A stretch of DNA of 64,000 nt, taken from contig JABWCL010000008.1 in assembly GCA_013360295.1 (NCBI GenBank), positions 1 to 64,000 on the forward strand, read 5' to 3'. The notes below the pieces were generated by a model. The model did not search any database. It was not told the DNA's origin and saw only the letters and a list, made by a program, of their open reading frames with translations. The DNA is from Ignavibacteriaceae bacterium. GTDB taxonomy: Bacteria > Bacteroidota > Ignavibacteria > Ignavibacteriales > Ignavibacteriaceae. The first letter of the stretch is position 1. Each line of letters opens with the position of its first letter. This document shows, one piece after another, positions 1-23,220 of the stretch. The translations under genes and the position numbers were made by a program.

Positions 1-1077
1 CCGGATGGAAAAAAGATTGTTGCGGCTAGTGATGATATGACACTTCGTGTATGGGATATAGAAAGAGGCAAATGTCTTAAAACACTTGAAGGGCATGCTG
101 AACCGGTTGATAATCTGAGTGCTACCCTGGATGGAAGGAAAGTTGTATCGGGTGGTAGTGATAATAAACTCCGCGTTTGGGATACGGAAAGCGGCAAATG
201 TTTCCATATACTCGAAGGATATCCCGATTATCGCTCTAGTGTAAACATCACTCCGGATGGGAGGAGAGTTGTTTCAGGGAGTAATGATAAAACGCTTCGT
301 GTCTGGGATATAGAAAGCGGTAAATGTATTCACTTACTTAAAGGGCATTCCGATTTTATTCCTAGTGCATGTATCAGCCCTGACGGGAAAAGATTTGTTT
401 CGGGAAGTAATGATAAAACACTTCGTGTCTGGGATATAGAAAGCGGTAAAGGTCTTCACTCACTTAAGGGCCACGCTTTAGGTGTTTTTAGTATAATTAT
501 CACCCCAGATGGAAAGAGAGCGATTTCGGGAAGTGGTGATATGACACTCCGTGTGTGGGATATAGAAAGCGGAAAGTGTCTTCGCACACTTGAGGGTCAT
601 ACTAATTTTGTTTTTATTGGATGTATCACTCCAGATGGAAAGAGAGCAGTTTCAGGAAGTTGGGATAAAACACTTCGTGTATGGGATATAGAAAGCGGTA
701 AATGTCTTCACATATTAAGTGGGCATAGTCACATCATTTCAAGTGTCCATATAACTCCGGATGGAAAAAAAATTGTTTCGGGAAGCAGTGATAAGACACT
801 CAGAGTATGGGATATAGAAAGAGGGAGGTGTCTTTACATCCTTGAGCATGCTGGTCCTGTAAATAGTATAAGTATTTCCGTGGATGGAATAAAAGTTGCT
901 TCTGGAAGCGTTGATAAAACACTCCGCGTGTGGGATTTGGAGAGTTGTAAATGTTTATTATTACTTGCACAAGAAACAAGCACTCATATAATTATTATAG
1001 ATGACTTGAAGAAAGTAATTTGTATTGGAACCTCAACCGGAGATGTGCTATTTTTTGAAATAAAAAATTTAAGATAA
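1..1077 (+). CDS. WD40-repeat beta-propeller protein, 5' partial
   Basis: The reading frame is open from base 1 (the first codons read PDGKKIVAASDD). The ATG at 37 lies inside a WD40 blade, so the true start is upstream of the window. Eight blades are visible, each with the LRVWD signature followed by SGK, a leucine-rich strand and GH, and a 42-residue period. The last blade is one residue shorter because it reads EHAG where others read EGH. No enzymatic domain is visible, so the likely role is a protein-binding scaffold or target-recognition propeller. The adjacent blades are unusually similar at DNA level. The DUF4062-STAND gene starts 12 bp downstream on the same strand, so co-transcription is likely. 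An effector or NTPase domain could precede the repeats outside the window. Confidence 0.9.
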   Translation, partial: PDGKKIVAASDDMTLRVWDIERGKCLKTLEGHAEPVDNLSATLDGRKVVSGGSDNKLRVWDTESGKCFHILEGYPDYRSSVNITPDGRRVVSGSNDKTLRVWDIESGKCIHLLKGHSDFIPSACISPDGKRFVSGSNDKTLRVWDIESGKGLHSLKGHALGVFSIIITPDGKRAISGSGDMTLRVWDIESGKCLRTLEGHTNFVFIGCITPDGKRAVSGSWDKTLRVWDIESGKCLHILSGHSHIISSVHITPDGKKIVSGSSDKTLRVWDIERGRCLYILEHAGPVNSISISVDGIKVASGSVDKTLRVWDLESCKCLLLLAQETSTHIIIIDDLKKVICIGTSTGDVLFFEIKNLR

Positions 1078-1089
1078 AACAGATACAAT

Positions 1090-3198
1090 ATGCCACAACA
1101 AACCAAAATATTCCGCGTATTTGTAAGTTCTACTTTCAGCGATATGAGAGAGGAACGGAGAATTCTTCAAAAAAATGTTTTCCCAAAACTCGAAAAGTTA
1201 TGTGAGAGTAATGGTGCAAAATTTCAGGCTGTAGATCTGCGCTGGGGGGTAAATGAAGAATCCCAGCTTAACCAGAAGACAATTGATATTTGTCTTAACG
1301 AAATTGCACGGTGCCAGCGCATCTCTCCCAAACCTAATTTTATAGTCTTGCTTGGTAACCGCTACGGGTGGCAGCCAATACCAACCACAATTCCACAAGA
1401 TGAAATGGAACAGATAAAACGATTGTTCACTTATCAGGAAAAAGCATTAATCGAGAAATGGTATTTGCTGGATGAGAATGCCATCCCTTCTGAATATGTG
1501 CTTCAACCGCGCGGAGCAAAGTATGCGGAATACAGCAGCTGGCGGCAAGTTGAAACAGAAATACGATACATATTTCGCGCTTCAGTTAACAAGTTAGATT
1601 TCTCACCAGAACAAAGATTAAAATATTTTGCCTCCGCCACACATCAAGAAATTGTGCACGGCGCTTTAGCTCCGCCCGCCGGAGGGGAAAGACCCGAAGA
1701 GCATGTATTTGCTTTTTTGCGGAATACGGAAGGATTGCCTGATAACGAAGAGGCAAGCGATTTTATAGATTTTATAAACGGCAAACAGGATGAATACTGT
1801 AAAACCAGGCTTAAGGAACTGAAAACAGAACTAAAAGCTAAACTGAAAAATAACTGCAAATCATATGCCGCCACTTGGGCCGGTGATAAAACTGAAATTT
1901 CCGATAAACAAGAATTTGAGAATACTATTTACGGGTTTCTGGAAGGGATCATAAAAGGTCAAATCGAAAAGATAATCACCGGGGATGAGGTAGAACTTGA
2001 AGTTAGGCTACATAATGAGTTCAAAAATAGATTAACCGAACATTTTCAAGGACGTGATGAGGTACTCAAGAAGATAGATAATTATTTAACCGGGCAGGAG
2101 AGAAAAGTATTGGCATTAATTGGCGATTCCGGTTCGGGCAAGTCGAGTGTTATGGCAAAAGCAGCATCAGTTTTAGGGGCGAAAAATACCAACGCGGTTA
2201 CAGTCTTTCGGTTTATAGGAGTAACATCCGGCTCAACAAATATTCTCTCATTGCTTCAAAATATCTGTAAACAGATCGCGCAAGGTTACGGAATTGAATT
2301 ACAGAGTTTAGTTGGTGAGGGGCGCGATAAAGAGAAAGCCTTGTATGAAATGAACGGTTTGACTGAGCTTTTGAATAAATGTCTTGCGCTTGGTACTGCA
2401 GAAAAACCACTCGTAATATTCCTTGATGCGCTCGATCAGCTATCTGATACCGATACGGCTAAAAATCTGTATTGGATTCCGCGGGAACTGCCTGAATACG
2501 CAAAATTTGTTGTCTCTTCTCTGCCTGAACTTGAAGCACGCTTAAACCAATCCGTTAAACTTTTACTGCCTGTCCTGCCTATGGATGAAGCGAAAATCAT
2601 TCTGAGTAAGTGGCTTGATGCGGAGAAAAGAACTTTAACCACAGGCCAATTTGAAGAAGTGCTGAACAAATTCAATAACAGTCAATTACCCATTTATCTG
2701 AAACTGGCTTTCGAAAAAGCCAAGCACTGGCATTCATACGATAAAGATGTAGCGCTCAGGGATGACGTGCCGGGTATTATTAATGATTTTATAGACGGAT
2801 TAATTAAGGATGGCCACGATGCAGATTTTGTTGAAAATGTGATCTGCTATATGCTTAGCGGCAGATACCAGGGATTAGCAGAAAATGAAATTCTCGAAAT
2901 ATTAGCTTTTGATGAAGAATATTGGAAATTATTCATTGAAAAATCACACAAGGATCACAGGCAGGAATTGATAGATTATAAAAAGGAGCTGGATGAATCA
3001 TCCGATGAAAACAAGCAGATGATGAAAATCCCGATTGTGGTATGGTCCCGCTTCTATCTTGACATGGAACCCTTCCTGACAGAACGTGATGCGGATGGCG
3101 TGCCGATTATCACATTCTTCCATAGGCAGTTTAATGAAGTGCTGAGAAAAAGGTATAAGCTGGAGGGAGACGTTGAGGAAGAAAAGTATGCCAAATAA
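1090..3198 (+). CDS. DUF4062 plus STAND (NACHT-like) NTPase
   Basis: A 702-residue protein. The N-terminal 110 residues match DUF4062 (RVFVSSTFSDMREER, then VDLRWGV and LLGNRYGW), a TIR/Rossmann-like module found in front of NACHT-type NTPases in bacteria and in eukaryotic TEP1/NWD1-like proteins. Walker A is GDSGSGKS at residues 345-352 and Walker B is VIFLDALD at 442-449. A helical winged-helix/arm region follows. By family knowledge STAND NTPases are nucleotide-controlled oligomerising switches, often in immunity. In relatives the arm region continues directly into WD40 repeats. Here it stops at 3198 and the WD40 part lies in the next, overlapping gene, so the two products probably act together. 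No clear Shine-Dalgarno precedes the ATG at 1090. Confidence 0.88.
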   Translation: MPQQTKIFRVFVSSTFSDMREERRILQKNVFPKLEKLCESNGAKFQAVDLRWGVNEESQLNQKTIDICLNEIARCQRISPKPNFIVLLGNRYGWQPIPTTIPQDEMEQIKRLFTYQEKALIEKWYLLDENAIPSEYVLQPRGAKYAEYSSWRQVETEIRYIFRASVNKLDFSPEQRLKYFASATHQEIVHGALAPPAGGERPEEHVFAFLRNTEGLPDNEEASDFIDFINGKQDEYCKTRLKELKTELKAKLKNNCKSYAATWAGDKTEISDKQEFENTIYGFLEGIIKGQIEKIITGDEVELEVRLHNEFKNRLTEHFQGRDEVLKKIDNYLTGQERKVLALIGDSGSGKSSVMAKAASVLGAKNTNAVTVFRFIGVTSGSTNILSLLQNICKQIAQGYGIELQSLVGEGRDKEKALYEMNGLTELLNKCLALGTAEKPLVIFLDALDQLSDTDTAKNLYWIPRELPEYAKFVVSSLPELEARLNQSVKLLLPVLPMDEAKIILSKWLDAEKRTLTTGQFEEVLNKFNNSQLPIYLKLAFEKAKHWHSYDKDVALRDDVPGIINDFIDGLIKDGHDADFVENVICYMLSGRYQGLAENEILEILAFDEEYWKLFIEKSHKDHRQELIDYKKELDESSDENKQMMKIPIVVWSRFYLDMEPFLTERDADGVPIITFFHRQFNEVLRKRYKLEGDVEEEKYAK

Positions 3199-5605
3199 AG
3201 CAAAAAAGTATCACAAAAGACTTTCTGAGTATTTTACTAAAGTCGCTGATCCATACAACAATCGCCGCTGGGAGGGTAAAACGGTTCGACCATTTATGGA
3301 ATTACCATTTCAGCTAGAGCAAATTGAAAAAAACAAAATAAATGAATTACTTTGGAATCCTTATTGGGATTATGCGAAGCTTAATCACGCAGATTTCTAT
3401 TCATTAATTTCTGATTTTTTGTATTTTCCAGAGGACATTGATTTGCGGTTAGTCCAAGAAGCCCTTTTTTTGTCAATGAGTACTCTAATTAATGACAAAA
3501 CGCAATTTGTAGGCCAACTTTTTTGCCGACTGAGTTGTATAGATAGGGTGAAAATTAAAGAGTATTTAAAAGAACTGGAAGGTTGGATATATCCACCGTG
3601 GTTGCGTCCGTTATTTCCCCAAACCATTCCTTCACTGATACCGCCAGGTGGGGGGCTTATTTCCCGTTTGGGAGGTCATCTCACGGGCGTTACATCTGTT
3701 TCAATCGTTGATGACGGTTCTCTTGCTGCATCGGGTGCACAAGATGGATCGATAAGTATCTGGGATCTTCAACACCTCAAGCGTCTTCACAAAATAGTGG
3801 GGCACAATGATGAAGTTAACACTTTAATTATTACCCAAATCAATGGTGATTATATACTAGCTTCTGGCGCAGGAAAACGTATTCCCTTTAAATTAACATT
3901 ACAAAACCGTTCCGTTTTAGAGCGCACAGATACACGAACGAGCAGGGATAATAAAATTCGAATCTGGAATATCACTGATGGTAGTTTAAAAACAGTGCTT
4001 GAGGGACACACTGCTGCAGTTCGGTGTCTAATATCTTGCGGTAGATTGCTTCTATCTGGATCGGATGATGGGACAATAAGAATGTGGGATTTGTGTGAAG
4101 GAAGAAGTTTGGGGATTCTAGGGAACCAAGGAGCCCCGGTAATTCTACTTGCTATGATTCCAAATTGTCTGGTTGTTGTTGCTTTTTCTGAATATGATTT
4201 TCAACTATGGAATATATTGGAACGAAGTGGGTCGGGTAAAGGAAAATTTGATTATCGTTGGCAAAATGTACTGGCATTTGATCCGGCAGGAATGTTAGTT
4301 GCACTGCAGGAAACAACTTTAAGTGGTGAAGAATTTCGTCTGAGAATTTGGGACATTCTGAAGTCTCAAGATGGTGATGAGTTTTTGTCTACAGTTACAA
4401 CATCTAATACATCATTTAGTGTGGCGCAATTTATTCCTGATGGGAAACATATTTTTGTTGGTGGGACAGACTGCAGCTTGAGGCTCTTTGATGTAGACAC
4501 AGGAGAAAACATCGAGCAGCTAATGGGGCACAAAGAAGTAGTTACTTGTATCTCCGTATCAGAAACTAATGGGAAATGTATTTCAGGAGCACTCGACGGA
4601 AGTGTTTTGTTTTGGAATTATCAGCCAAAGCAAAGATCTGAACTTAATACTGGTCATTCGGATGATGTCAATTCAATTTCAGTATCTGGTGATGGTCTAA
4701 TTGCTGTAAGTGCTTCCCACGATCGTTCCTTGATTGTGTGGGAAACAAGTGTGGGTAAACCGCTTTTAACTATACATGGACATCAAGGTTCAATAAAAAG
4801 TACTGCTATTAACATAAATGGAACTCATATTCTCTCAGGTTCAAACGATTGGACGGTAAGATATTGGAGTGTTCTAGAAGCAAAGCAATTATATAAATTA
4901 GAAGGACACAAGTACGCGGTCACATGCGTGGCTTTTTCGTCAGATAATTATTATGCTATATCGGGATCAGGAGATAAAACTCTGAAAGTATGGGATCTGT
5001 CTAATGGATGTGAAAGATTGACATTTAAAGGTCATCAATATGGCATTAGAGCATTAGCGGTATTTCACCATAGCAATGTTGTAGTGTCGGGTGATGAGTC
5101 AGGTCTATTGATTGTATGGAACTTGATTAGTGGAAATGAGATACGGCGGATAAAACATTTTTGTGATATAGATAAACTTCATAGCTCAACCAAACACTTG
5201 TGGGGCTTTGCTAACGGACCTGTGTGGCAATCAAGTAAAGAGGAAAGGCATATTCCATGCATAGAATCTATTGCGATCTCACCTGACGACAAGCAGCTTC
5301 TTGTCGCACGAAGAGATAAAGCCATTATTGTTTGGGACATCGAAAACGGAGTAGAATTAGTAAAGCTTCAAGGGCATACTGGCATTGTTTTTGATGTTGC
5401 CATATATTCAAATGGAGAAAGGGCGATTTCAGTTTCAGATGACAATAGTCTAAAGGTGTGGGACCTTATAAATGGTATATGCACTGCAACATTCACGGCG
5501 GACTTCCCATTGTATAGTTGTGCAGTTAGTCCTGATTGCAGAACAATTCTTGTTGGCGAAGGCGCTCGATCTGGAAAAGTACATTTTTTAACCTTAACAT
5601 CGTGA
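3188..5605 (+). CDS. WD40-repeat protein, partner half of the STAND gene
   Basis: An 805-residue protein. I chose the ATG at 3188 because GAGGAAG lies about 9 nt upstream. It overlaps the end of the STAND gene by 11 nt in a different frame, which suggests translational coupling. A TTG at 3173 is also possible. The first 150 residues (KYHKRLSEYF, ELPFQLEQIE) resemble the helical region that normally sits between a NACHT arm and WD40 blades inside one polypeptide. The rest is a run of about 12-14 WD40-like blades (SGSDDGTIRMWD, SGSGDKTLKVWD and others), some degenerate. This looks like the recognition propeller of a split STAND receptor. A frameshift splitting an ancestral single gene is the alternative. 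Confidence 0.85.
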   Translation: MPNKAKKYHKRLSEYFTKVADPYNNRRWEGKTVRPFMELPFQLEQIEKNKINELLWNPYWDYAKLNHADFYSLISDFLYFPEDIDLRLVQEALFLSMSTLINDKTQFVGQLFCRLSCIDRVKIKEYLKELEGWIYPPWLRPLFPQTIPSLIPPGGGLISRLGGHLTGVTSVSIVDDGSLAASGAQDGSISIWDLQHLKRLHKIVGHNDEVNTLIITQINGDYILASGAGKRIPFKLTLQNRSVLERTDTRTSRDNKIRIWNITDGSLKTVLEGHTAAVRCLISCGRLLLSGSDDGTIRMWDLCEGRSLGILGNQGAPVILLAMIPNCLVVVAFSEYDFQLWNILERSGSGKGKFDYRWQNVLAFDPAGMLVALQETTLSGEEFRLRIWDILKSQDGDEFLSTVTTSNTSFSVAQFIPDGKHIFVGGTDCSLRLFDVDTGENIEQLMGHKEVVTCISVSETNGKCISGALDGSVLFWNYQPKQRSELNTGHSDDVNSISVSGDGLIAVSASHDRSLIVWETSVGKPLLTIHGHQGSIKSTAININGTHILSGSNDWTVRYWSVLEAKQLYKLEGHKYAVTCVAFSSDNYYAISGSGDKTLKVWDLSNGCERLTFKGHQYGIRALAVFHHSNVVVSGDESGLLIVWNLISGNEIRRIKHFCDIDKLHSSTKHLWGFANGPVWQSSKEERHIPCIESIAISPDDKQLLVARRDKAIIVWDIENGVELVKLQGHTGIVFDVAIYSNGERAISVSDDNSLKVWDLINGICTATFTADFPLYSCAVSPDCRTILVGEGARSGKVHFLTLTS

Positions 5606-6140: not shown

Positions 6141-6800
6141 TTACTTTTTATGCACCACGAAATGCTTATCCGCCTTCTTTCCGGGAATTAAAGCAGAGAA
6201 ATAATTTATTCCTTCAGCTTTAGTAAAATTCACAACCTCCACACCATTCTTCACAGTGTGAGAAAAAAGAGTGGGCAGTTCATTTCGTTTTGCTTTTACT
6301 CTTAATTCAACCGCGCTTTTACCGATCTTTATAATCTGTAAGGATTTACCCTGAAGCACTTTATCCTTTTTCGCTTTTATTGATGTGCCTGTTTTAAAAT
6401 TATTTACCGCCGGAGATTCTTTTAATGCTTCTTCTATTAAATAAGAAAACGGAGTGATTTCATAAGCGGGGTCGATTAATTTTTCGAGGAGTTCATCGAG
6501 CTTGCTTTTTAGAATTTCCCCGGATTTGTCTATATAATTTTCAATGGTCCTGATTATTTTATTTTTATCAGCCCAGCTCATTTTCTTGAATTTACTTCGC
6601 TGATGCTTTTTTACCATTATGGGGAGTTCGCTCAGCATTTCTAAATCAGCTTCAATTTTTGAAACGGCGGCATTGTAATATTCAGCACGCGAGTAACACT
6701 CCCGGCATTCATTAATGTGAATGCCCGCTTTTATGGTTTTTGACGCGGGAAGCTTATTCAGGAAATAGTTCTCTATTTCGGTATCGGTTAAGTGTTTCAT
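6141..6800 (-). CDS. Putative zinc-finger anti-sigma factor
   Basis: A 219-residue protein. The N-terminus has the classic anti-sigma arrangement: a short helix (LTDTEIENYFLNKL) followed by the metal-binding motif H28-x3-C32-x2-C35 (HINECREC). The lysine-rich remainder has no obvious transmembrane helix, so this would be a cytoplasmic anti-sigma factor. Its start overlaps the stop of the 98-residue gene (ATGA). It is the third gene of an operon whose first gene encodes a sigma-like protein, which fits co-translation of a cognate pair. The role is inferred from motif and context. The C-terminal 150 residues are unrecognised and could hold the sensory part. Confidence 0.65.
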   Translation of the reverse strand: MKHLTDTEIENYFLNKLPASKTIKAGIHINECRECYSRAEYYNAAVSKIEADLEMLSELPIMVKKHQRSKFKKMSWADKNKIIRTIENYIDKSGEILKSKLDELLEKLIDPAYEITPFSYLIEEALKESPAVNNFKTGTSIKAKKDKVLQGKSLQIIKIGKSAVELRVKAKRNELPTLFSHTVKNGVEVVNFTKAEGINYFSALIPGKKADKHFVVHKK

Positions 6801-7093
6801 TTTGTTACGAATCTTGCCATCTTAAAAATATCAGTAGACTGTTGTGATAAATAAATCTTGTCAGCTTTAAAAACAATTAAGGAGCTAACAAAACTATAGC
6901 CAGTCTTTAAAATACCGGCTGCCTTTGAGAAGTTGAAACTTTGACTTAAACTTCTCAAAGCAGTTCTGTCTTCCCGATAAATACACAAATTAATCCAATA
7001 AATCGCAGTATTTGTGAGAGCCTTTAACATAATAATGCCAAAAGAATCATTAAAAGCCACACCATTGTTAAAGTTATACAGAATCTTCCACAT
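6797..7093 (-). CDS. Small protein between sigma and anti-sigma genes
   Basis: A 98-residue product that I do not recognise. It is supported as a real gene because it starts 8 bp after the sigma-like gene's stop and its TGA overlaps the ATG of the anti-sigma gene (ATGA). The N-terminal half is moderately hydrophobic (GIIMLKALTNTAIYWINLCIY) but not a convincing transmembrane helix. The C-terminal half is mixed alpha/beta. Its position suggests a third partner in the sigma/anti-sigma switch, or merely a coupling peptide. Confidence 0.5.
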   Translation of the reverse strand: MWKILYNFNNGVAFNDSFGIIMLKALTNTAIYWINLCIYREDRTALRSLSQSFNFSKAAGILKTGYSFVSSLIVFKADKIYLSQQSTDIFKMARFVTK

Positions 7094-7101
7094 ATAAAAA
7101 G

Positions 7102-8283
7102 CTATTTATTCGTAGATTTGGTTTTCACGGATGCCTTATAATAGTCTCTTAACATCAAACTCTCCTGATCATTTCGTTTTAAGATCATTTCCACGAACCT
7201 GGTCTTTGCTTTGTAAGTCCAATCCGGTAAAGAATATCCATCCACTTTACTGAATAATAATTGACCGGCAATAGGTTTAATCCGCTCTTCAAGTTCATTA
7301 AATAAAGGTATAAAAATAACTTCGGCGCTTCTGGTTTGACCAACGAAACTATTTAATATATAATCAAATAATTCCCGCGCATTTAAAAGATAGAGGCGGC
7401 TATTCTCGAATTCTTTTGTTGAAATTCTGCATATGCTTAATAAAAACGCAAAAAGATGTTTTTTGTTTTTTATGTTCCTAATTATATATCCGAGTATGAG
7501 GTAAAGAATTTTATGTTTTTCGTCCAGAAGAAGTGTGTTTAAGGGATTATCATTTGTCCTCCATACCCCTGGTATGGCTACGAAGTTCTTTGATTCCTCC
7601 GCATCGTAATTGGGATAGTTTCGCTTTTTATGCTTATTTGAATTATTTAACTGATCCTTAATAGACAAAAAATCGCTCTTAACGCTTTTTGACCATTTCT
7701 CAATTTCTTTCAGATTCTTTCGGGGCTCCTTTAAAAAAGGCTGCGTTTTTATATCAGAGATCTTCTCCCACAAACACTCGAAAATCACATTTATGTTTTC
7801 TTCAAACCAGTATGGCGATGATTTAAGGATGAAAAGTGCGATAAACTCTTTTTTCGCGTTAAGGAATACACTTTCAAGTGTTTGTCCGCCAAATCCCCCG
7901 GCAATAAATTCTTTAGGAGAGATACCCAGATAGTAATTATAAATGAAAAGCAAAATATACCTGGGATTCCCTTCCTCCCGAACGGTCTCGAAAAGAGTTG
8001 AAAAATCCTTTAAGTAGGCGGTGAATGCCCTGTTGCCAAAACTTGCTTTATTATATTTATAAATGAATCTAAGGAATGCCTGCTTACTCCAATAAAAGAA
8101 AAAACTCTTAATGGTTCCCTTTTCGGGATTATAGGTCGGAAATTTAATCCTGCATAATTCATATGCACTCTGCATAAAATCAAACCACAAATCGGAATCA
8201 TTTGTCTTTTTCCATCGGTAATGCGTTTTAAGATATCCGGAAATCAGGGCTTCGTGTCTTTCCCACTCTATATCAAATTGCAT
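7102..8283 (-). CDS. Divergent sigma-70-family-like factor with C-terminal extension
   Basis: A 393-residue protein. Residues 30-80 resemble sigma region 2 (DLWFDFMQSAYEL, then YNPEKG-IKSFFFYWSKQAFLRFI). Residues 105-152 resemble region 4 (RYILLFIYNYYLGISPKEF, then a turn and VFLNAKKEFIAL). About 240 further residues follow that ordinary ECF sigma factors lack, including a second similar segment near residues 265-320 (ISTKEFENSRLYLLNARELF). It is the first gene of a coupled operon ending in a zinc-finger anti-sigma gene. It is divergent from the J-like/propeller operon, which is its most obvious regulatory target. The assignment rests on motif reading and context. A sigma-derived non-transcriptional protein remains possible. 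Confidence 0.6.
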   Translation of the reverse strand: MQFDIEWERHEALISGYLKTHYRWKKTNDSDLWFDFMQSAYELCRIKFPTYNPEKGTIKSFFFYWSKQAFLRFIYKYNKASFGNRAFTAYLKDFSTLFETVREEGNPRYILLFIYNYYLGISPKEFIAGGFGGQTLESVFLNAKKEFIALFILKSSPYWFEENINVIFECLWEKISDIKTQPFLKEPRKNLKEIEKWSKSVKSDFLSIKDQLNNSNKHKKRNYPNYDAEESKNFVAIPGVWRTNDNPLNTLLLDEKHKILYLILGYIIRNIKNKKHLFAFLLSICRISTKEFENSRLYLLNARELFDYILNSFVGQTRSAEVIFIPLFNELEERIKPIAGQLLFSKVDGYSLPDWTYKAKTRFVEMILKRNDQESLMLRDYYKASVKTKSTNK

Positions 8284-8464
8284 CTTAACTGTTTTCCGGA
8301 ATCCGAATAAATCTATGGTTCATAGCTGAAAAAATAATATGAATTTCGATAAAACCCAATGTAAATGATTATATAAATAAAGATAAAAGCGAGAAATTGT
8401 AAGTATTAGCGTATTATTAAATATCTAAAGTCTGTTCTATTAGTTCATAAAAATGGAGAAAAAT

Positions 8465-9976
8465 ATGTACTGTAGTATCCTTGAAGATTACTCAACCTTG
8501 TTTTTGGGGGATTCTGCCCTGTCAATTTTTAAGGAAAAGCTGGACAATGAATTGAATAACCTTTACAATTTCTGCATAAATAAAGATCTTTATGAAGCGT
8601 ATGGCGTCGGTAAAATCCCTCCTTACGAATCGCTTTTTAAGGAATTACTGGATCTTGCCTCTGATAATCATATTAACACACATAAGGCCATTATGTTATG
8701 TGTAAAAATATATTTTGAAACAAATTTCATCTGCCATAACAACAAGTTGTCACGCCATCATTCTAACAATGAGGGTGGGGCGATTAATCTGATAGATAAA
8801 TGGAAAAATAGCGAGAATCTCGAATCGTATAAATCGGCCTTTGGAGTGAAGTTAGAGGAGATGGCTCTCATACTTAATCACTTATTAAGAAATCACAACT
8901 CGGAATTCAGGGGTATGTGTTCCGATTCAGATAAATTAAAGGTTTATTTGCACTCAATTTATCTGAATGACTGCTACGCCTATGGACTATATGATGAAGA
9001 CGCTATTTGTTTTGAATCCTATTGGCAGAAGAATTTTTCAATCCTGAACAACGAATCAGTTAGTGACCGGGACAAATGGTGGAAATTCTCCTCATCATAT
9101 TACGGACTAAATAATGACATCGGTAATGCCTATACCACACTTGACTCAATAAAATTGCGGAATAAAATCACTTATTCCGAATGGCTTAAACACTTTTCGC
9201 AATATGAAATAGAGACACAAAACCTTTTGTATGAAAAGAAGATGTATGAGATTCAGATTACAATAAAGAATCTGAATTCCGAAATGACCAAAGAGGAATG
9301 TTCGTCAAAAGCCACAATGGAACTACTGGAAGAAGAAAACAAACTCAAAGAACTTCAGAAGAATGCCGGGTGGGCAGACGCTTATGATTTGTCCATTTAT
9401 TCTCATTCACCCATCAATTATAAACGGGTACTTCAGGAGTACCGTCAAAAAATGGATTATTATTACCGTCTTGCCGTAAAACTGCTGCATCCGGACCGGC
9501 GTGATCTCCTATTGAAGGGGAAGGCGCTTAGCGAAGAACAGGAAAAGGAACTGGATGATTTATATAAGGAAATTGTAACTATCAGGGAACAATCTTCTTC
9601 TCATTCTTTTGATATAATTTCCGGAAATTTTATGTCTATAAACAAGTTCATAAGAATAATATCCAGGGCCGAGTCAATTTTCTACACGATTGGAATAGTC
9701 TTGCCGAAATTGAAATATTTAATCCAAGGTGATTCCTATGAAGCCCAGATCGAATACCTAATGACCGAAGAAATGCTGCTCCTTTCCGATTTAGCAAATA
9801 TTGAAGCGGAAACGCAAATCCAATATTCTGACCAGGAATACTATCAAAAAGAGAGCATATTGCAAAGCCCCAAATCTATAGAAAGAGTCAAGCTTAAGTA
9901 TCAGAGTATTATTGATGATTACAAAAAAGAAATATCAGCCCTAAGAGAAGAGCTGGAATATTTGTTTAAGGAGTAA
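8465..9976 (+). CDS. Coiled-coil protein with J-domain-like HPD segment
   Basis: A 503-residue protein. The ATG at 8465 is preferred over the ATG at 8453 because GGAG (8455-8458) lies 6 nt before it. The N-terminal 220 residues are helical and unrecognised. Residues about 240-305 are predicted coiled coil (KKMYEIQITIKNL, LEEENKLKELQK). Residues about 325-375 contain YYRLAVKLLHPDRR, with the HPD tripeptide at 342-344 between two amphipathic helices, as in DnaJ J domains. A second coiled coil ends the protein. It is the first gene of the plus-strand operon divergent from the sigma/anti-sigma operon. An Hsp70-recruiting role for the propellers downstream is a guess; the J-like segment is degenerate. 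Confidence 0.6.
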   Translation: MYCSILEDYSTLFLGDSALSIFKEKLDNELNNLYNFCINKDLYEAYGVGKIPPYESLFKELLDLASDNHINTHKAIMLCVKIYFETNFICHNNKLSRHHSNNEGGAINLIDKWKNSENLESYKSAFGVKLEEMALILNHLLRNHNSEFRGMCSDSDKLKVYLHSIYLNDCYAYGLYDEDAICFESYWQKNFSILNNESVSDRDKWWKFSSSYYGLNNDIGNAYTTLDSIKLRNKITYSEWLKHFSQYEIETQNLLYEKKMYEIQITIKNLNSEMTKEECSSKATMELLEEENKLKELQKNAGWADAYDLSIYSHSPINYKRVLQEYRQKMDYYYRLAVKLLHPDRRDLLLKGKALSEEQEKELDDLYKEIVTIREQSSSHSFDIISGNFMSINKFIRIISRAESIFYTIGIVLPKLKYLIQGDSYEAQIEYLMTEEMLLLSDLANIEAETQIQYSDQEYYQKESILQSPKSIERVKLKYQSIIDDYKKEISALREELEYLFKE

Positions 9977-9981
9977 TAGTT

Positions 9982-10416
9982 ATGTTAAGTCTTGCAGAGT
10001 TAAGATATTTGTGTGTTGAGGCAATGAAATCCAGACCGACACTAAGTATGCTTATTTTAACAGCCATAAAGTATAATAAAAAGGAGCTTGATGCTTTATT
10101 TTATTTTGCCGGATACTCACTGCAGAAATTTAAGGAGGGTCTTCGGGATAATGAAGAGATGGGAAAAATCGAAGATAAGGGTTTGATTGATATTATAAGG
10201 ACGGAATCTAATCCCAATATATTACATTTAATAAAATGGTGCTGCCTCAACAACGAGGGGGTGAAAAGCAAATTAATAAAAGACGGATTAATCATAGAAG
10301 ACTTTATTGGTTATCTGGATACTAAGATCCATTTGGCCGATACAAGGACGATTCTACCGGATAAGACGGTTTCAAATAATCCCCTTTTTCACATTTCCGG
10401 TGAAAGATCTAATTAA
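9982..10416 (+). CDS. Small helical protein of the propeller operon
   Basis: A 144-residue product with no family recognised. AGGAG is present about 11 nt before the ATG, overlapping the end of the upstream gene, so it is clearly in the same operon. The sequence is mostly short alpha helices (LRYLCVEAMKSRPTLSMLILTAI, LDALFYFAGYSLQKFKEGL), with a polar, probably extended tail. No transmembrane helix or catalytic motif is visible. It may be an adaptor between the J-like protein and the propellers, judged only by its position. Confidence 0.6.
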   Translation: MLSLAELRYLCVEAMKSRPTLSMLILTAIKYNKKELDALFYFAGYSLQKFKEGLRDNEEMGKIEDKGLIDIIRTESNPNILHLIKWCCLNNEGVKSKLIKDGLIIEDFIGYLDTKIHLADTRTILPDKTVSNNPLFHISGERSN

Positions 10417-10429
10417 AGCAGGAGGCATA

Positions 10430-12715
10430 ATGAATAAAGAAAATATTGGCCCGGATAATAAACATCTGATAAATCTGAAGGAAATTAATGAACAAATAAT
10501 TACCATAAGAGAAAATATTTATCGTGAGGATAAAAAGGATCCCCCGGGGCATTTCGTTGATTTTGATCTGTTGCCGGTCTCTATGCTGCATACATACGAC
10601 ATTGAAAGAGTTGTTTATGCCGACTATAGCGGCGGCAATGTTGTAAGAGGGTATGATGTAATGACTGGCGAATGTATCTATGAGGATAATTGGAGCTATG
10701 ATACTACGGAATTATTCCGCGGTTATTCTAATTGTTCAAGTTATATTATGACTACAACTCCGGAATCAAATTACCTTAGAGTATTTGATATAAAAAGCAA
10801 ACGCAAACTATCTGCCGACCCCCATCACAGGGGGCGCGTTGTTGATCTGGTTATGGCTCATAAAGAAAACTATACCATCACCGCCGGAGTGGATGGATAC
10901 GTCAATATATTCTCCAACTTCACCTTTGAACTACTGAGGGTACTTAAAGCCGGTAATCACGGAATTCCATATTCCATTGCACTAATTCCATTTGAGCCGG
11001 TTCTTGCCGTTGGTTATTCAGACGGAAATATATTGTTGTTCAATATAAATACAGGAGACTCCATCTTAAGCTTCAGGGGCTGTAAACCCGGATATCTTAA
11101 ATCCATTTGTTCTTCCGAAGAGCACATAGTAGTCGCAACACAAAATGGAATTTCCGCTTTTAGTTTGAATGGTGAACTTATTACTTCTATATCACTCCCC
11201 TTTCAACCCGGAATGATAAAATGCGGTATTGGCGATTTGTGGCAGCATTCACCAAGAAGAATTGCCAACATTAGAAGAAATGATCCGTTTATGACCAATT
11301 CAATCTTCATAACTACAGCGATGGGCGGGGTATATTTATACGATTATCTTGAGAGCAAATTAATTCATACAATCGAAGGACATAATGAAAGTATTACCGG
11401 CTTAATCATATCATCGGATAAGACGCTATTTACCTGCAGCTATGACGGCGCTATAAGGCATTATGATTGCGTTTCAAAGAAATGCATCCGTATATTTTAT
11501 AAAAGCGATGGTTGCCGCAGTGTATCGGTATCGAATAATCTCAAATATCTGGGCACGAGTGGCGTCATTGACAATAAAGCAAAAATAGTTGATATGATCA
11601 CCGGAAAGATAACGCACGCAATAAAGCATCAGGATTCAATAAGATGTGTAAGGTTTGGAGAAGTGGATGGGGATGAATACTTGTTTACCGGTTCGTGGGA
11701 TAGAACCATAAACCAGTATGATGTTTTGTCCGGAGAACTGGTCAGAACATTCAACGCGCCGGGGAGAGTATGTGATTTACTTATATCCTCACCGCTATTA
11801 TTTATAGCTTTTTATGATAGAGATAAAAATGGCGGCTTTCAGATAAACGACATCAAGACGGGTAAGCTGCTATACATATCGAATAATCACGAACAAAAAG
11901 AGCGTTTCTCAAGATGCGTTATTCTGGGTATAATGGAAGAATATTTGTTTACAGGCGGGGATGATGGTAAAATATACCAGTGGAATACCCGTACCTATAC
12001 GATTGTCAGCATTATGGATTGTAAAGGAAGTGTGCGAAATATCTGTTTGGATAATGTCCGGAAATTGCTATTCGCCGGACTGGACGAATCATCAATAATG
12101 GTGTGGGATACTAAGAATGGAGTTTTGTTAAAAACCTTTAAATCATACTGTTCACCGGTTTCAATACTTGTTATAACCGAAGATTATCTGTTTGCAGGAC
12201 ACGAGAATGGGGGTGTATCCCAATATGATATAAGAACCTTCAATTATCTGAAAGCGTACAACTACCATTCACAAAGAATTTGGGACATGTATTATAATAA
12301 AAGCAACAGAACATTAATCACTTCTTGCGGCGATGGAAAAATCAATTTTATCTCAATCGATACCGGAAAGATCAAGGGGAGGTTTTATAATATAAATAAG
12401 GGATATTTATGGGTAACGGAACCGGATGAAGATAATCCGCGCGGCTATTATTGGACAGACCAAACGGACAGGATAATAATTGCGGAAGCTGAAGAACAAA
12501 GCAAAGATATAAAAATCCGTAGTAACATAGTAGCTGAATATCATTCCGTTTATAACAATCGCAAACTGGTTATGTCAAAGATAAATGGTGAGGCTTATTT
12601 TGATATCTTCAAGGAAAAGACAACCCGGTTTCAAAACAAGAATGAAATCACCAAACTTGCAGAAAACACACAGTGTAAAATGCTTGGAGAGGGCTCGATT
12701 GTCAGAGGCGAATAA
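10430..12715 (+). CDS. Giant beta-propeller protein, paralogue 1
   Basis: A 761-residue protein. The start at ATG 10430 is fixed by AGGAGG at 10420-10425, 13 nt after the previous stop. The frame is open further upstream but no better start exists. After about 80 residues comes a long array of degenerate WD40/PQQ-like blades (DYSGGNVVRGYDVMTGECI, CSYDGAIRHYDCVSKKCIR, GSWDRTINQYDVLSGEL). The protein ends with a distinctive tail containing GYLWVTEP, GYYWTDQTD and YNNRKLVMSKINGEAYF. The same tail is in the next gene, so the two form a tandem paralogous pair. No NTPase or nuclease domain is present. The likely role is recognition or scaffolding in the J-like/propeller complex. Confidence 0.85.
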   Translation: MNKENIGPDNKHLINLKEINEQIITIRENIYREDKKDPPGHFVDFDLLPVSMLHTYDIERVVYADYSGGNVVRGYDVMTGECIYEDNWSYDTTELFRGYSNCSSYIMTTTPESNYLRVFDIKSKRKLSADPHHRGRVVDLVMAHKENYTITAGVDGYVNIFSNFTFELLRVLKAGNHGIPYSIALIPFEPVLAVGYSDGNILLFNINTGDSILSFRGCKPGYLKSICSSEEHIVVATQNGISAFSLNGELITSISLPFQPGMIKCGIGDLWQHSPRRIANIRRNDPFMTNSIFITTAMGGVYLYDYLESKLIHTIEGHNESITGLIISSDKTLFTCSYDGAIRHYDCVSKKCIRIFYKSDGCRSVSVSNNLKYLGTSGVIDNKAKIVDMITGKITHAIKHQDSIRCVRFGEVDGDEYLFTGSWDRTINQYDVLSGELVRTFNAPGRVCDLLISSPLLFIAFYDRDKNGGFQINDIKTGKLLYISNNHEQKERFSRCVILGIMEEYLFTGGDDGKIYQWNTRTYTIVSIMDCKGSVRNICLDNVRKLLFAGLDESSIMVWDTKNGVLLKTFKSYCSPVSILVITEDYLFAGHENGGVSQYDIRTFNYLKAYNYHSQRIWDMYYNKSNRTLITSCGDGKINFISIDTGKIKGRFYNINKGYLWVTEPDEDNPRGYYWTDQTDRIIIAEAEEQSKDIKIRSNIVAEYHSVYNNRKLVMSKINGEAYFDIFKEKTTRFQNKNEITKLAENTQCKMLGEGSIVRGE

Positions 12716-14975
12716 GCAAAAGATAGGCTGCGCGGGCAATCAATTAACGGCTCCTTCTGGCCCCCATTCTTCGCTGCTTGGGATAAAAAAAGAGATCTTT
12801 GAAAGCGCGAACCCTAAAAGGCTGACTCATTCGATATCCATAATGAATCCCGGTGAGATTAGCGCCATATTCTCCGATTGTGAATTTGATTCTATTTATG
12901 TAATGTATAACAGCAGCAAACAAATTGTTAAATATGATATCTTATCCGGAGAATGTATCCGGAGGCAAAATTGGATTATGCCAGACAAAGATATAAACGA
13001 TACTTTTGATTTCAATAAATGGACACCATTTTCTGAGAATAAAAAGCATTATCTGTTCCAGAGGCTTCATTTACCAAACGAAGACGCGGGCTATAATTTC
13101 CACTTAAATCAATTACGAATTATTCAAGATTACATCAAAGCGGATAAGGAGTGCCTGTTTCAAAATAATATTTCGGGAGCTTTGGGTTTGTTTTCGCTTA
13201 GGGAGATGAATCTTACAGGGACCATAAATACGGACTCGGTGGCACGGATTACCGCCGCAGCCATAGTTGGATCGCATAAGCAGCTAATCCTTGGTCATCA
13301 GGACGGAATTATTAAATCTTATAATTACATAACAGGTGAACTACTCTACGAAGAAAAAATAGCTAATGAACCAATAATCAGCATCGCTTATTCCGAGCGC
13401 TTTTTTTGCCCGGCTACCGAGCATAAAGTATTTATTTGTTTTTATTCCGGAAACGCTATTGAATTATTCCGGGTAGAGGATAAAATAGTGCGGGTAAAAA
13501 TCAGTTACGAGGACAATTGGGATAAGACGGAATATTATAAAGTTGCCCATACAGCCTCAGCACGATTTCTGTACAATACAATAGTTGTTTATTCTTCAGG
13601 CGGAGAACTATTAATTTATGATATAATTCAAAAAGCTTTTGTTTTAAGATATCCCACAAATAGCGAATATATAGATAACTTGTTTTTAAGGGGAGATGGG
13701 CAAATTTTTTATAGTACAGTCGAAAAAACAGTTCATCATGTTAATTTATTTAAAAATAAGCTTGAGCGTGTATATTACGAGATCGACGGAAATCGAAGTA
13801 TAGCCGCTTCAAAAGACTCGAAATACCTCTGTGTCTCCGGGATAGTAGATCAAAAAGCTAAATTAATCGATTTTCAAAACGGAAGAATCAAATATGAGTT
13901 CAAGCATCAGAAGTCAGTGAGAACGGTAGCATTCGGGAGCATAGATGAAACTGAATTTGTTTTTACAGCGGGATGGGATGGCATCGTCAAACAATGGAGA
14001 GTATCCGATGGTAATCTTGAACGTCAAATTGATATAACAGGGAATATATGCGACCTCAAAATATCCGGTGACATACTTTATGCCGCGTTCTACCCTCAAT
14101 TTACCAACGGCGGGTTTTGTGCTTTTGATATTAAAAAAGGGGAAATGCTCTATAAACGCAGAGACCACAAAGGCGTTGATTTTCCCGGCAGGACTATGGC
14201 GGTACTCCCCCACGGTAATTATGTTTATTCAGCAGGAGATGATGGAATAATTAATAAATATGCGATTGCTAGTGGCATCAGGATTAGCTCCTTTAATCAC
14301 GGGGTTAGCATAAGAAGTCTTGCGATTGCCAAAGACGGAAAAAGATTATTCTCATCAGCTGTTGATGGAACAATTAAAATATGGGACACAATAACCGGTG
14401 CTATGTTAAAGGTACTGCGTGGACACAATGGGCGTATATACTCTATCGAATTATCAGATGATGACAAACACCTGTTCTCAGCAGATGTTTTCGGAAACAT
14501 AAATAAGTTCTGTGTTGAGACCGGCGTGGTAAAACACAGATATTTTTCTCCGGAAAACAGGAGAATCTGGATGCTTAAGATCATAAACAACGGCCGAACA
14601 CTCATATCGTGCAGTGAAGATTATTCAACAGGATTTTATAGTACGGACGATCTAACCAGGATTGGCTCCTGCTACAATTTGTACAAAAGTTATTTGTGGA
14701 CTCTCGAATCTGAAAACAAAGATATGGGTGAATATTATTGGACAGACAGACCGGATTTAATAAATGTATTGAATTCGCATTCTTCTGCAAATTCAGATAA
14801 TGAGAGAATTGATTCAGAGGAGTACCATAGAATATATAATAATCAAAAAGTTGTTATGTCGCGCTTAAATGGAACGGGTTACTTCAATATTCACAAATCA
14901 GCACTGAATTTAAAGTCCGGTAAAAAACAAATCGAGCAACCTAATGTTGAAAAAGCAAAGAAATTATTATCATGA
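12699..14975 (+). CDS. Giant beta-propeller protein, paralogue 2
   Basis: A 758-residue protein, almost the same length as paralogue 1. I propose the TTG at 12699 (GGAGAGGG at 12686-12693), which overlaps the previous gene by 17 nt. Starting further upstream would need over 100 nt of overlap. The blades align with paralogue 1 (YDILSGECIRRQNW against YDVMTGECIYEDNW, and AFYPQFTNGGF against AFYDRDKNGGF). The tail repeats the SYLW, YYWTD and YNNQKVVMSRLNGTGYF signature. The pair clearly arose by tandem duplication and has diverged widely, consistent with a heteromeric assembly or with recognition of different targets. Confidence 0.83.
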   Translation: MSEANKQKIGCAGNQLTAPSGPHSSLLGIKKEIFESANPKRLTHSISIMNPGEISAIFSDCEFDSIYVMYNSSKQIVKYDILSGECIRRQNWIMPDKDINDTFDFNKWTPFSENKKHYLFQRLHLPNEDAGYNFHLNQLRIIQDYIKADKECLFQNNISGALGLFSLREMNLTGTINTDSVARITAAAIVGSHKQLILGHQDGIIKSYNYITGELLYEEKIANEPIISIAYSERFFCPATEHKVFICFYSGNAIELFRVEDKIVRVKISYEDNWDKTEYYKVAHTASARFLYNTIVVYSSGGELLIYDIIQKAFVLRYPTNSEYIDNLFLRGDGQIFYSTVEKTVHHVNLFKNKLERVYYEIDGNRSIAASKDSKYLCVSGIVDQKAKLIDFQNGRIKYEFKHQKSVRTVAFGSIDETEFVFTAGWDGIVKQWRVSDGNLERQIDITGNICDLKISGDILYAAFYPQFTNGGFCAFDIKKGEMLYKRRDHKGVDFPGRTMAVLPHGNYVYSAGDDGIINKYAIASGIRISSFNHGVSIRSLAIAKDGKRLFSSAVDGTIKIWDTITGAMLKVLRGHNGRIYSIELSDDDKHLFSADVFGNINKFCVETGVVKHRYFSPENRRIWMLKIINNGRTLISCSEDYSTGFYSTDDLTRIGSCYNLYKSYLWTLESENKDMGEYYWTDRPDLINVLNSHSSANSDNERIDSEEYHRIYNNQKVVMSRLNGTGYFNIHKSALNLKSGKKQIEQPNVEKAKKLLS

Positions 14976-20664: not shown

Positions 20665-23220
20665 ATGCCCGTCAACAAAGAACAACACCAAAAAGATATT
20701 AAAAGGTTTATTGCGGAGCGGAAGCAGTATGAAACCTTTGCAAAAACACTGGAACAGATATTAACCGCCGCGGCGAATATTTATGCCCCCCTATCCATTG
20801 TGCAGGTACGGGCTAAAAATGTATCCAGCTTTGCCGAGAAGATTATACGCAAAAACAAGTATAAAGACCCTCTGCGCGATATTACCGATCTCTGCGGCGC
20901 GAGGATAATAACCCAGACGCAGGAACAAATTGATAAAGTCTGCGGTTTTATCCGGCAGAACTTTTTAATTGATGAAGCTAACAGCCTTGATGTTGGCGAG
21001 CGGTTACAGATAAAAGAATTTGGCTATCGCTCGGTTCATTTTATTATAACACCGGTTAAAGAGGAAATACTCGGCATTAAAATACCTGACGAACTTAAAG
21101 ATAAAAAAGCCGAGATACAGGTAAGAACCCTGCTTCAGCATACCTGGTCGGACGTATTGCACGACAGGCTCTATAAAACCGCCTTAAAGATACCAAGAGA
21201 ATGGGAGCGGGAATCGGCACGGCTTGCCGCACTTCTCGAAAACGCGGATGAAAATATTTCCCGCATTACTTCCCTCACCGACTCTTACACAGCCAACTTC
21301 GGTAACCGGATGACCGCTGATCAATTGGCGGGGGAAATAGAGACACTCCGGACAATTCTTGATAATGAACCTTCTGAACAGAACAAACCGGCAATAGCCT
21401 TAAAAATCGCCAGGCTTACGAAATTTACCGGTAACCGGAAGAAAATCATCAAACTTCTGACACTCTTTGCAAATGTACCCTCAAAAGTTAATGCCGAAAT
21501 AAAAACAGAATTGGGTTATGCTTTGTGTAAAGAATACAAAACCCGGCCTTCAGGCAAGCAGTTTATAAGGGGTGAAAAATACTTAGCCGGTGTGGCGGGA
21601 ATAAAAGAGCTTGAAGCAGATGCTTCCAAAATATCGCTTAAAAACATTCCTGAAAGTTATTCCTCAAGATTACTGGCGCTCCGGTATCTCGCGGAAACCT
21701 GTGAAGGGAGTCGGCAGGATGATAAAGTTAAGAAATTATATAACCTAGCGTACCGTATGGATTATGATAACCCTTATTTGTTCGCTAAAATGCTTGAACA
21801 TAATAATAATTTCTGCGAGCATAAGATGCTCATAAAAGGTAATATCCTTAAAGCAATAGAATTGTGCCGCGAGCATATTGCGCTTGGTATAGAATCAATA
21901 AAAGCATATTTCACAATAGCGAAATTGTATCTTTTACTGGACGATTCCTACCCCGCCCTGGAAGCGTGCGCTAAAGCTATTGATTTACTCATATCCGAAA
22001 AACTCTGCTTCTGCCGGGAAATGCTTGATGATGAAATTGAATCGTTTGCACGGCTAACTAATAGTGAAAAGGAGAATACTGGAATCGAGTGTGCGATAAA
22101 CCTGCTGCATATTACCAACTATTTGTTGTATGGTGAAAATAAATCCCATAATTACCTGAAAAAGATTGCGACTGTCCTCGACACAGGCAAACCGCCAATT
22201 ACCATTATCGCCGGTGGTTCAGATAACATTTCACCCGTTTCCGCTAATAAATACAGCCGCTTCCTGAACGACGCGGTAAGAAGATACTCCGGGACAATAA
22301 TATCCGGCGGAACAACAAGCGGTGTGCCCGGACTTCTCGGTACGGCGGTGGAACTGGCAAGAAAGCTCGGTAACAGGGAAATCAATTTAATCGGGTACAT
22401 TCCCAAGAAAAATATAAAAGGTATCAAAGCAGATAAAGCCTATAAACTTGTTCAGACTACCGGAGATTCCTTTACTCCCCTGGAGCCGATCCGTATGTGG
22501 TGTGATCTGATCGTAAGCGGAGTTGAACCGAAAAATGTTATAATGCTCGGAATAGACGGCGGGAAAATAGCCGCGATAGAATACCGTTTAGCGCTTGCGT
22601 TCGGCGCGCAACTCGGAATTGTACAAGAGAGCGGACGAGCGGCAAATGAAATTCTTAAAGATATTGATTGGCGTTACCACAATAATTTACTTCCTGTTCC
22701 AAATGAGAGTGAGTCTGTCTGGGCTTTTATCAATTATCGAAGAACCGATTCTTTGTTCAGCGCCGCGCAGCTTGAAGATATGGCAAAGGTGATCCATCAT
22801 AACTACGTACAGGACCAGCTTAAAAACGTAAAACCTGCCGAGAATATTAAAGAATGGAAAGAGCTCAGAGCAGATTATAAGAATTCCAATATTAACCAGG
22901 CGCTTTTTATAAGTGAAATTCTTGCGTTGAACGGATTTGGTATAAGAAAAACATCTGATGACGGGAAAGCAGTAAAGGAATTCACAAAAGATGAACTGCT
23001 TAAGATGTCGAAAATGGAACACGGCAGATTCGTTGCAGAAAGGCTGCTGCAAGGATGGAAGTACGGACCCGAAAAAGATCCGGCAAAGCTGATAAGCCCC
23101 TACTTAATTCCCTGGGATGATGTTCCGCCCGAAATCCAGCAGTTTGACGTAAACAGTATTAACAATTATCCCGGGCTGCTGAAAATGGCGGGATTGGAAA
23201 TTTACCGCGTTGATGATTAA
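20665..23220 (+). CDS. RelA/SpoT synthetase-TPR-SLOG-RyR fusion
   Basis: An 851-residue multidomain protein. Residues 40-175 are a (p)ppGpp-synthetase-like nucleotidyltransferase, with RDITDLCGARI (D75), GYRSVHF (121-126) and EIQVRT (E150), then HTWSDVLH. The metal and catalytic acids of the family are present, and there is no HD hydrolase domain. Residues about 230-500 are helical, TPR-like. Residues 510-660 are a TRPM/LSDAT-like SLOG domain (ITIIAGGSDN, SGTIISGGTTSGVPG). Residues 777-851 form a RyR domain (MEHGRFVAERLLQGWKYG ... ISPYLIPWDD). It may make a (p)ppGpp-like or other pyrophosphorylated signal under control of SLOG/RyR ligand sensing. The Nudix gene follows 15 bp later. Confidence 0.87.
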   Translation: MPVNKEQHQKDIKRFIAERKQYETFAKTLEQILTAAANIYAPLSIVQVRAKNVSSFAEKIIRKNKYKDPLRDITDLCGARIITQTQEQIDKVCGFIRQNFLIDEANSLDVGERLQIKEFGYRSVHFIITPVKEEILGIKIPDELKDKKAEIQVRTLLQHTWSDVLHDRLYKTALKIPREWERESARLAALLENADENISRITSLTDSYTANFGNRMTADQLAGEIETLRTILDNEPSEQNKPAIALKIARLTKFTGNRKKIIKLLTLFANVPSKVNAEIKTELGYALCKEYKTRPSGKQFIRGEKYLAGVAGIKELEADASKISLKNIPESYSSRLLALRYLAETCEGSRQDDKVKKLYNLAYRMDYDNPYLFAKMLEHNNNFCEHKMLIKGNILKAIELCREHIALGIESIKAYFTIAKLYLLLDDSYPALEACAKAIDLLISEKLCFCREMLDDEIESFARLTNSEKENTGIECAINLLHITNYLLYGENKSHNYLKKIATVLDTGKPPITIIAGGSDNISPVSANKYSRFLNDAVRRYSGTIISGGTTSGVPGLLGTAVELARKLGNREINLIGYIPKKNIKGIKADKAYKLVQTTGDSFTPLEPIRMWCDLIVSGVEPKNVIMLGIDGGKIAAIEYRLALAFGAQLGIVQESGRAANEILKDIDWRYHNNLLPVPNESESVWAFINYRRTDSLFSAAQLEDMAKVIHHNYVQDQLKNVKPAENIKEWKELRADYKNSNINQALFISEILALNGFGIRKTSDDGKAVKEFTKDELLKMSKMEHGRFVAERLLQGWKYGPEKDPAKLISPYLIPWDDVPPEIQQFDVNSINNYPGLLKMAGLEIYRVDD

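Follow-up and report, generated by a model that had tools for sequence, protein, structure and literature searches.

In the beta-propeller MoxR-vWA ternary conflict systems, propellers are combined with helical partners and with no conventional effector, and the GAP1-N2 GTPase systems carry HSP70/GrpE together with a DnaJ-fused component (Kaur et al. 2020, PMC7159879). DnaJ also mediates phage sensing by bNACHT25 (PMC12169576). Sigma factors have been described in such settings as well: type III-E CRISPR places CASP-sigma and its dedicated inhibitor Csx30 in a defence locus, where CASP-sigma matches ECF sigmas by HHpred with an E-value of 3.4e-31 (PMC10028731), and EACC2-caspase loci include an ECF sigma factor and DUF1822 (Kaur et al. 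2021, PMC8195603). An earlier note on the DNA analysed here proposed that a dedicated sigma switch controls large recognition proteins; the general idea has precedents, type III-E CRISPR already offering a sigma switch in a defence system.

The DNA is a window of 64,000 nucleotides from an Ignavibacteriaceae bacterium (contig JABWCL010000008.1). The open reading frames that the earlier note had named at 6141-14975 were all present where it had placed them (Table 1). They form a minus-strand cassette (6141-8283) and a plus-strand operon (8453-14975), which face away from each other as had been described, across a gap that is 169 bp and not the 180 bp claimed.

Table 1 Features of the divergent locus, with positions in the window
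Feature	Position	Strand	Basis
Anti-sigma-like protein P0003, 219 aa	6141..6800	-	Codon bias, Hx3Cx2C
ORF P0002, 98 aa, probably non-gene	6797..7093	-	No codon bias, no Shine-Dalgarno
Sigma-like protein P0001, 393 aa	7102..8283	-	Marginal ECF sigma model matches
Divergent intergenic region, 169 bp	8284..8452	.	Between starts at 8283 (-) and 8453 (+)
J-like protein P0004, 507 aa	8453..9976	+	HPD motif at residues 346-348
Helical protein P0005, 144 aa	9982..10416	+	28% identity to same-position gene in G331
WD40 propeller P0006, 761 aa	10430..12715	+	Pfam WD40; family-specific C-terminal tail
WD40 propeller paralogue P0007, 758 aa	12699..14975	+	TTG start overlapping P0006 stop

A rare operon of J-like, helical and propeller proteins

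The plus-strand operon is real, conserved as a unit, and rare. Its genes are separated by 5 bp, then by 13 bp, and finally overlap, so that P0004-P0007 are by all appearances one transcription unit, and Shine-Dalgarno-like sequences are present. The open reading frame of P0007 opens at 12585, but the TTG at 12699, preceded by the Shine-Dalgarno-like GGAGAGG, is the better start, and it overlaps the P0006 stop at 12715. P0006 and P0007 are paralogous WD40 propellers, scoring 89.5 and 77.8 bits with PF00400 against a Pfam cut-off of 27, and their profile matched the PDB WD40 protein 2ymu with an E-value of 1e-56. Both end in a common C-terminal tail that is not WD. The earlier description of an operon encoding a J-like protein, a helical protein and two paralogous propellers of about 760 residues is borne out for the open reading frames, their packing and the WD40 propellers.

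The C-terminal region of P0004 is helical or coiled, and an HPD following a helix (helix II-HPD) is invariant in P0004 and in its homologues from two other genomes, G331 and G066. Resemblance to the J domain is limited to this helix II-HPD stretch: a J HMM gave the three proteins 6.6, 8.0 and 5.3 bits, scores equalled by 4, 4 and 13 of 2000 shuffles (4 for P0004), and the Pfam DnaJ model reached none of them. Neither P0004 nor P0005 is covered by a family in Pfam, NCBIfam, PADLOC or PHROGs, and no effector or toxin domain was recognised in the operon. No PADLOC system model fits it, the sole match in that library being a partial one between a propeller and HEAT-ARM_XIII, over about 115-140 of 1972 positions.

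Among 196 relatives searched, one good homologue of P0004 turned up, in G331, at 35-36% identity. The gene order J-helical-propeller is the same in that genome as here, with identities of 36%, 28% and 30%. A third locus, in G066, was reached by a two-sequence J profile (E 3.4e-6), and the J-like gene there directly follows a propeller gene. Independently of the J profile, the tail shared by the other three propellers picked out the G066 propeller, at 32.3 bits compared with at most 11.9 in 2000 shuffles. Within the order (164 genomes), the propeller-tail profile built from all four propeller sequences was strong (E<1e-50) in only 3 genomes, the same three that carry the J-like protein, a co-occurrence that rests on few events, with three known J-propeller loci. 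The same-genus genome searched, G247, has neither the J-like protein nor the propeller tail. No relatives of the J-propeller proteins were found in phage, plasmid or viral collections, and the J-helical-propeller unit had no counterpart in the family libraries or literature searched.

Three further resemblances were rejected. The G303 match to P0004 is a chance match in a CRISPR Cas-like protein. The match in G509 is a lone J-like protein among ribosomal-protein genes and not the J-propeller system; this 364-aa protein (L028:7418-8512), with a C-terminal coiled coil and a ribosomal-protein/EF-Ts neighbourhood, weakly resembles the P0004 C-terminus. The likeness between the propeller tail and the tail of a G066 WD40-caspase was by eye only and was unsupported when tested.

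A divergent sigma/anti-sigma-like cassette

The cassette had been described as three translationally coupled genes. P0002 has a codon bias of 0.003 bits per codon, against 0.135 for P0001 and 0.197 for P0003, values usual in this window, and 0.08-0.20 for its neighbours; its GC content at codon position 1 is 27% compared with 37-46% in real neighbours; and it has no Shine-Dalgarno sequence and no protein family matches. P0002 is probably a chance ORF, and therefore the coupling of three genes is unsupported: once it is discounted, the two credible genes lie about 300 bp apart.

P0001 had been called sigma-like, and the profile searches that had been named as the test of this assignment left relatedness marginal, not absent. 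Within its N-terminal 160 aa, NCBIfam yielded three ECF sigma models and nothing else; TIGR02937 matched residues 11-85 in the register of region 2 (E=0.0072, below the curated cut-off), and two SigM models matched at E 0.05-0.12. The likeness to ECF region 2 over residues 11-91 is marginal, Pfam gave no match to P0001, and an HMM of ECF sigmas from the source and related genomes did not separate it from shuffles. Residues 107-150 look HTH-like by eye, and a low-confidence model makes them helical, but a region 4 HMM gave no score for residues 91-165. The remaining extension, of about 230 aa, is helical, and the whole protein is all-helical in the same low-confidence model. For P0001, sigma-like is a plausible label, not an established one.

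The putative zinc-finger anti-sigma gene fared similarly. P0003 contains Hx3Cx2C (H28, C32 and C35, the last two its only cysteines), equalled in 0.0225% of shuffles, which is the N-terminal motif of class I zinc anti-sigma (ZAS) factors; no anti-sigma or zf-HC2 match was obtained in Pfam, NCBIfam or PHROGs. A Pfam ATPTG10 match fell under its cut-off and was taken as chance. P0003 is soluble by inspection, with no apparent transmembrane segment, and its low-confidence model has N-terminal helices with the Hx3Cx2C, a long helix and a beta-rich C-terminus. The structure models of P0001 and P0003 were made without alignments and have pLDDT values of 41 and 48, and a Foldseek search returned no matches. 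P0003 is a putative inhibitor of a cognate sigma, and we call it anti-sigma-like.

No relatives of P0001 were found in a sample of the phylum, the whole order (164 genomes), GTDB contigs, IMG/VR or plasmids. Two weak matches in the order, L022 and L024, were dismissed on inspection, and the majority of the remaining ones were in frames interrupted by stops. For P0003, the order gave only weak matches to helical segments, and plasmids gave none.

Genomic neighbourhood

The window also contains genes for DUF4062/NACHT-WD40, TIR, RelA-SLOG-RyR, SLATT and type I restriction proteins. A single plus-strand run at 1-5605, directly upstream of the cassette, encodes a WD40 protein, a DUF4062-NACHT-like STAND protein and a second WD40 protein. 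At 20665-23220 lies an 851-aa fusion of RelA/SpoT-like, SLOG (LSDAT) and RyR parts, the N-terminal part of which matches the PADLOC candidate PDC-S33. An 894-aa protein at 25694-28378 carries an AAA+ domain, a weak match to the bpMoxR of propeller ternary systems, and a C-terminal RyR domain. Farther away, an 801-aa open reading frame (56423-58828) appears by eye to combine a PLP-dependent decarboxylase-like part with a response-regulator-like segment at the C-terminus; its minus-strand cluster also includes two sigma-54-activator-like and one tyrosyl-tRNA-synthetase-like open reading frames, again by eye.

In G066, a WD40-caspase gene (1077 aa) is overlapped by a caspase-DUF4384 gene (L018:13797-18399). 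These caspase genes adjoin the propeller-J pair and are convergent with it on the opposite strand. We infer a defence or conflict role of the operon only from its neighbourhood, here and beside the G066 caspases.

Control of the operon and alternative explanations

The earlier note had stated that a lack of co-occurrence of the two operons would refute its idea, and such a lack was seen at both of the other loci that could be compared. No sigma/anti-sigma pair was found among the open reading frames inspected within 32 kb around the G331 unit or within 20 kb around the G066 unit, and the 164 genomes hold no cassette relatives. A dedicated sigma switch is possible, but it does not belong to the conserved part of the J-propeller system. 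Of the switch proposed over large recognition proteins, what stands is a conserved operon in an island of conflict genes; the cassette does not co-occur with it at the other two loci. In G331, a Ser/Thr kinase (Pkinase) gene and then a gene for an FHA/sigma-54-activator/Fis-type HTH protein precede the operon, the latter at a distance of 700 bp from the J gene. The link between this activator and the operon is only positional, because a simple pattern search found no sigma-54 consensus in the 700-bp gap. No control module was seen at G066. A transcription switch for the operon is plausible here by analogy only, with the G331 activator and kinase.

It is conceivable, though rather unlikely, that P0001 is a true ECF-type sigma held by P0003 and that its release starts transcription of the J/propeller operon within 8284-8452, gating a defence response. 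The divergent arrangement of cassette and operon, the marginal match in the correct register of region 2 with sigma models alone, and the ZAS-type motif of P0003, whose gene is the next credible one on that strand, favour this reading, for which type III-E CRISPR (PMC10028731) and the ECF genes of EACC2-caspase loci (PMC8195603) are precedents. Region 4 went undetected, the local ECF HMM was unsupportive, no clear promoter motif was recognised in the 8284-8452 gap, and neither the companion loci nor the order offer a second cassette, all of which count against it. The missing co-occurrence in G331, G066 and the order, the marginal sigma evidence and the patchwork of conflict genes in the island would suit an inverted 2.1-kb cassette that is an unrelated orphan module, maybe not sigma-related, landed between the DUF4062/WD40 system and the operon. 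We regard this too as somewhat improbable, given that P0001 and P0003 both have coding bias and that a sigma-like protein beside an Hx3Cx2C protein is unlikely by double chance, a regulatory cassette being more likely than nothing.

An operon outside conflict altogether, serving as a housekeeping or surface-assembly accessory such as a membrane or secretion scaffold, would fit the lack of a toxin domain, the small outer-membrane beta-barrel gene after the G331 operon and the gene after the G066 J gene, which reads as a multi-membrane-spanning protein. The downstream genes vary by locus, however, and the very patchy distribution (3/164 genomes) and the defence-island setting here also make such a role highly improbable. 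A more far-reaching reading, in which a dedicated J-domain protein and the paired double propellers would make up the chaperone-driven sensor of a conflict system not described before, its expression gated by a soluble sigma/anti-sigma pair whose sigma factor bears a helical extension of 230 residues, appears distinctly unlikely.

Our preferred reading, held tentatively and at somewhat less than even confidence, is that the plus-strand operon encodes a rare J-like/helical-adaptor/WD40 complex, linked to DnaK and provided with a lineage-specific control module. WD40 propellers are binding scaffolds, and HPD comprises the residues by which J domains stimulate Hsp70. The J-like protein, the small helical adaptor and the large propellers would act together, probably as a complex, with the propellers most likely recognising or scaffolding a target. 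Because the HPD motif is kept in the J-like proteins, DnaK may be used: the J-like protein could hand the target to host DnaK, or DnaK could switch the complex. In the simplest model, the propellers would serve as sensor or scaffold, and DnaK would act on their clients or their conformation. The unit may be kept as an inducible accessory, with a control module that differs from lineage to lineage: here the soluble cassette of P0001 and P0003, probably self-regulating and perhaps regulating the divergent operon, and in G331 presumably the Ser/Thr kinase and FHA/sigma-54 activator instead.

Comparison with known systems

If the J-propeller unit is a DnaK-borrowing sensor, the link between chaperones and bacterial immunity would be widened to a self-contained operon, and interchangeable control modules would show how such units come under inducible control; the sigma cassette alone would be one more marginal case of a known theme. 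In bNACHT25 sensing a J protein also takes part in phage sensing, but it is the host DnaJ with a NACHT protein and not a dedicated J-propeller operon. As in the GAP1-N2 systems, a J-domain protein would belong to a conflict operon, whereas the GTPase, HSP70 and GrpE genes are absent here. The pairing of a sigma-like with an inhibitor-like protein in a defence setting is similar to that of CASP-sigma and Csx30, although the sigma match of P0001 is only marginal and, unlike in type III-E, CRISPR and a protease are absent from the operon. EACC2-caspase loci likewise place a sigma-factor-like gene beside conflict genes, and caspases adjoin the G066 locus, but the operon itself has no caspase, EACC2 or DUF1822. 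Several propellers, helical partners and no conventional effector are features shared with the MoxR-vWA ternary systems, and a tie to a chaperone-type engine would be another. MoxR and a vWA-propeller protein are the hallmarks of those systems; with Pfam, the operon proteins showed neither a MoxR nor a vWA domain, and neither was seen in the open reading frames beside the G331 and G066 units, which were read and in part scanned with Pfam. Here it would be the J-like protein that gives the chaperone link.
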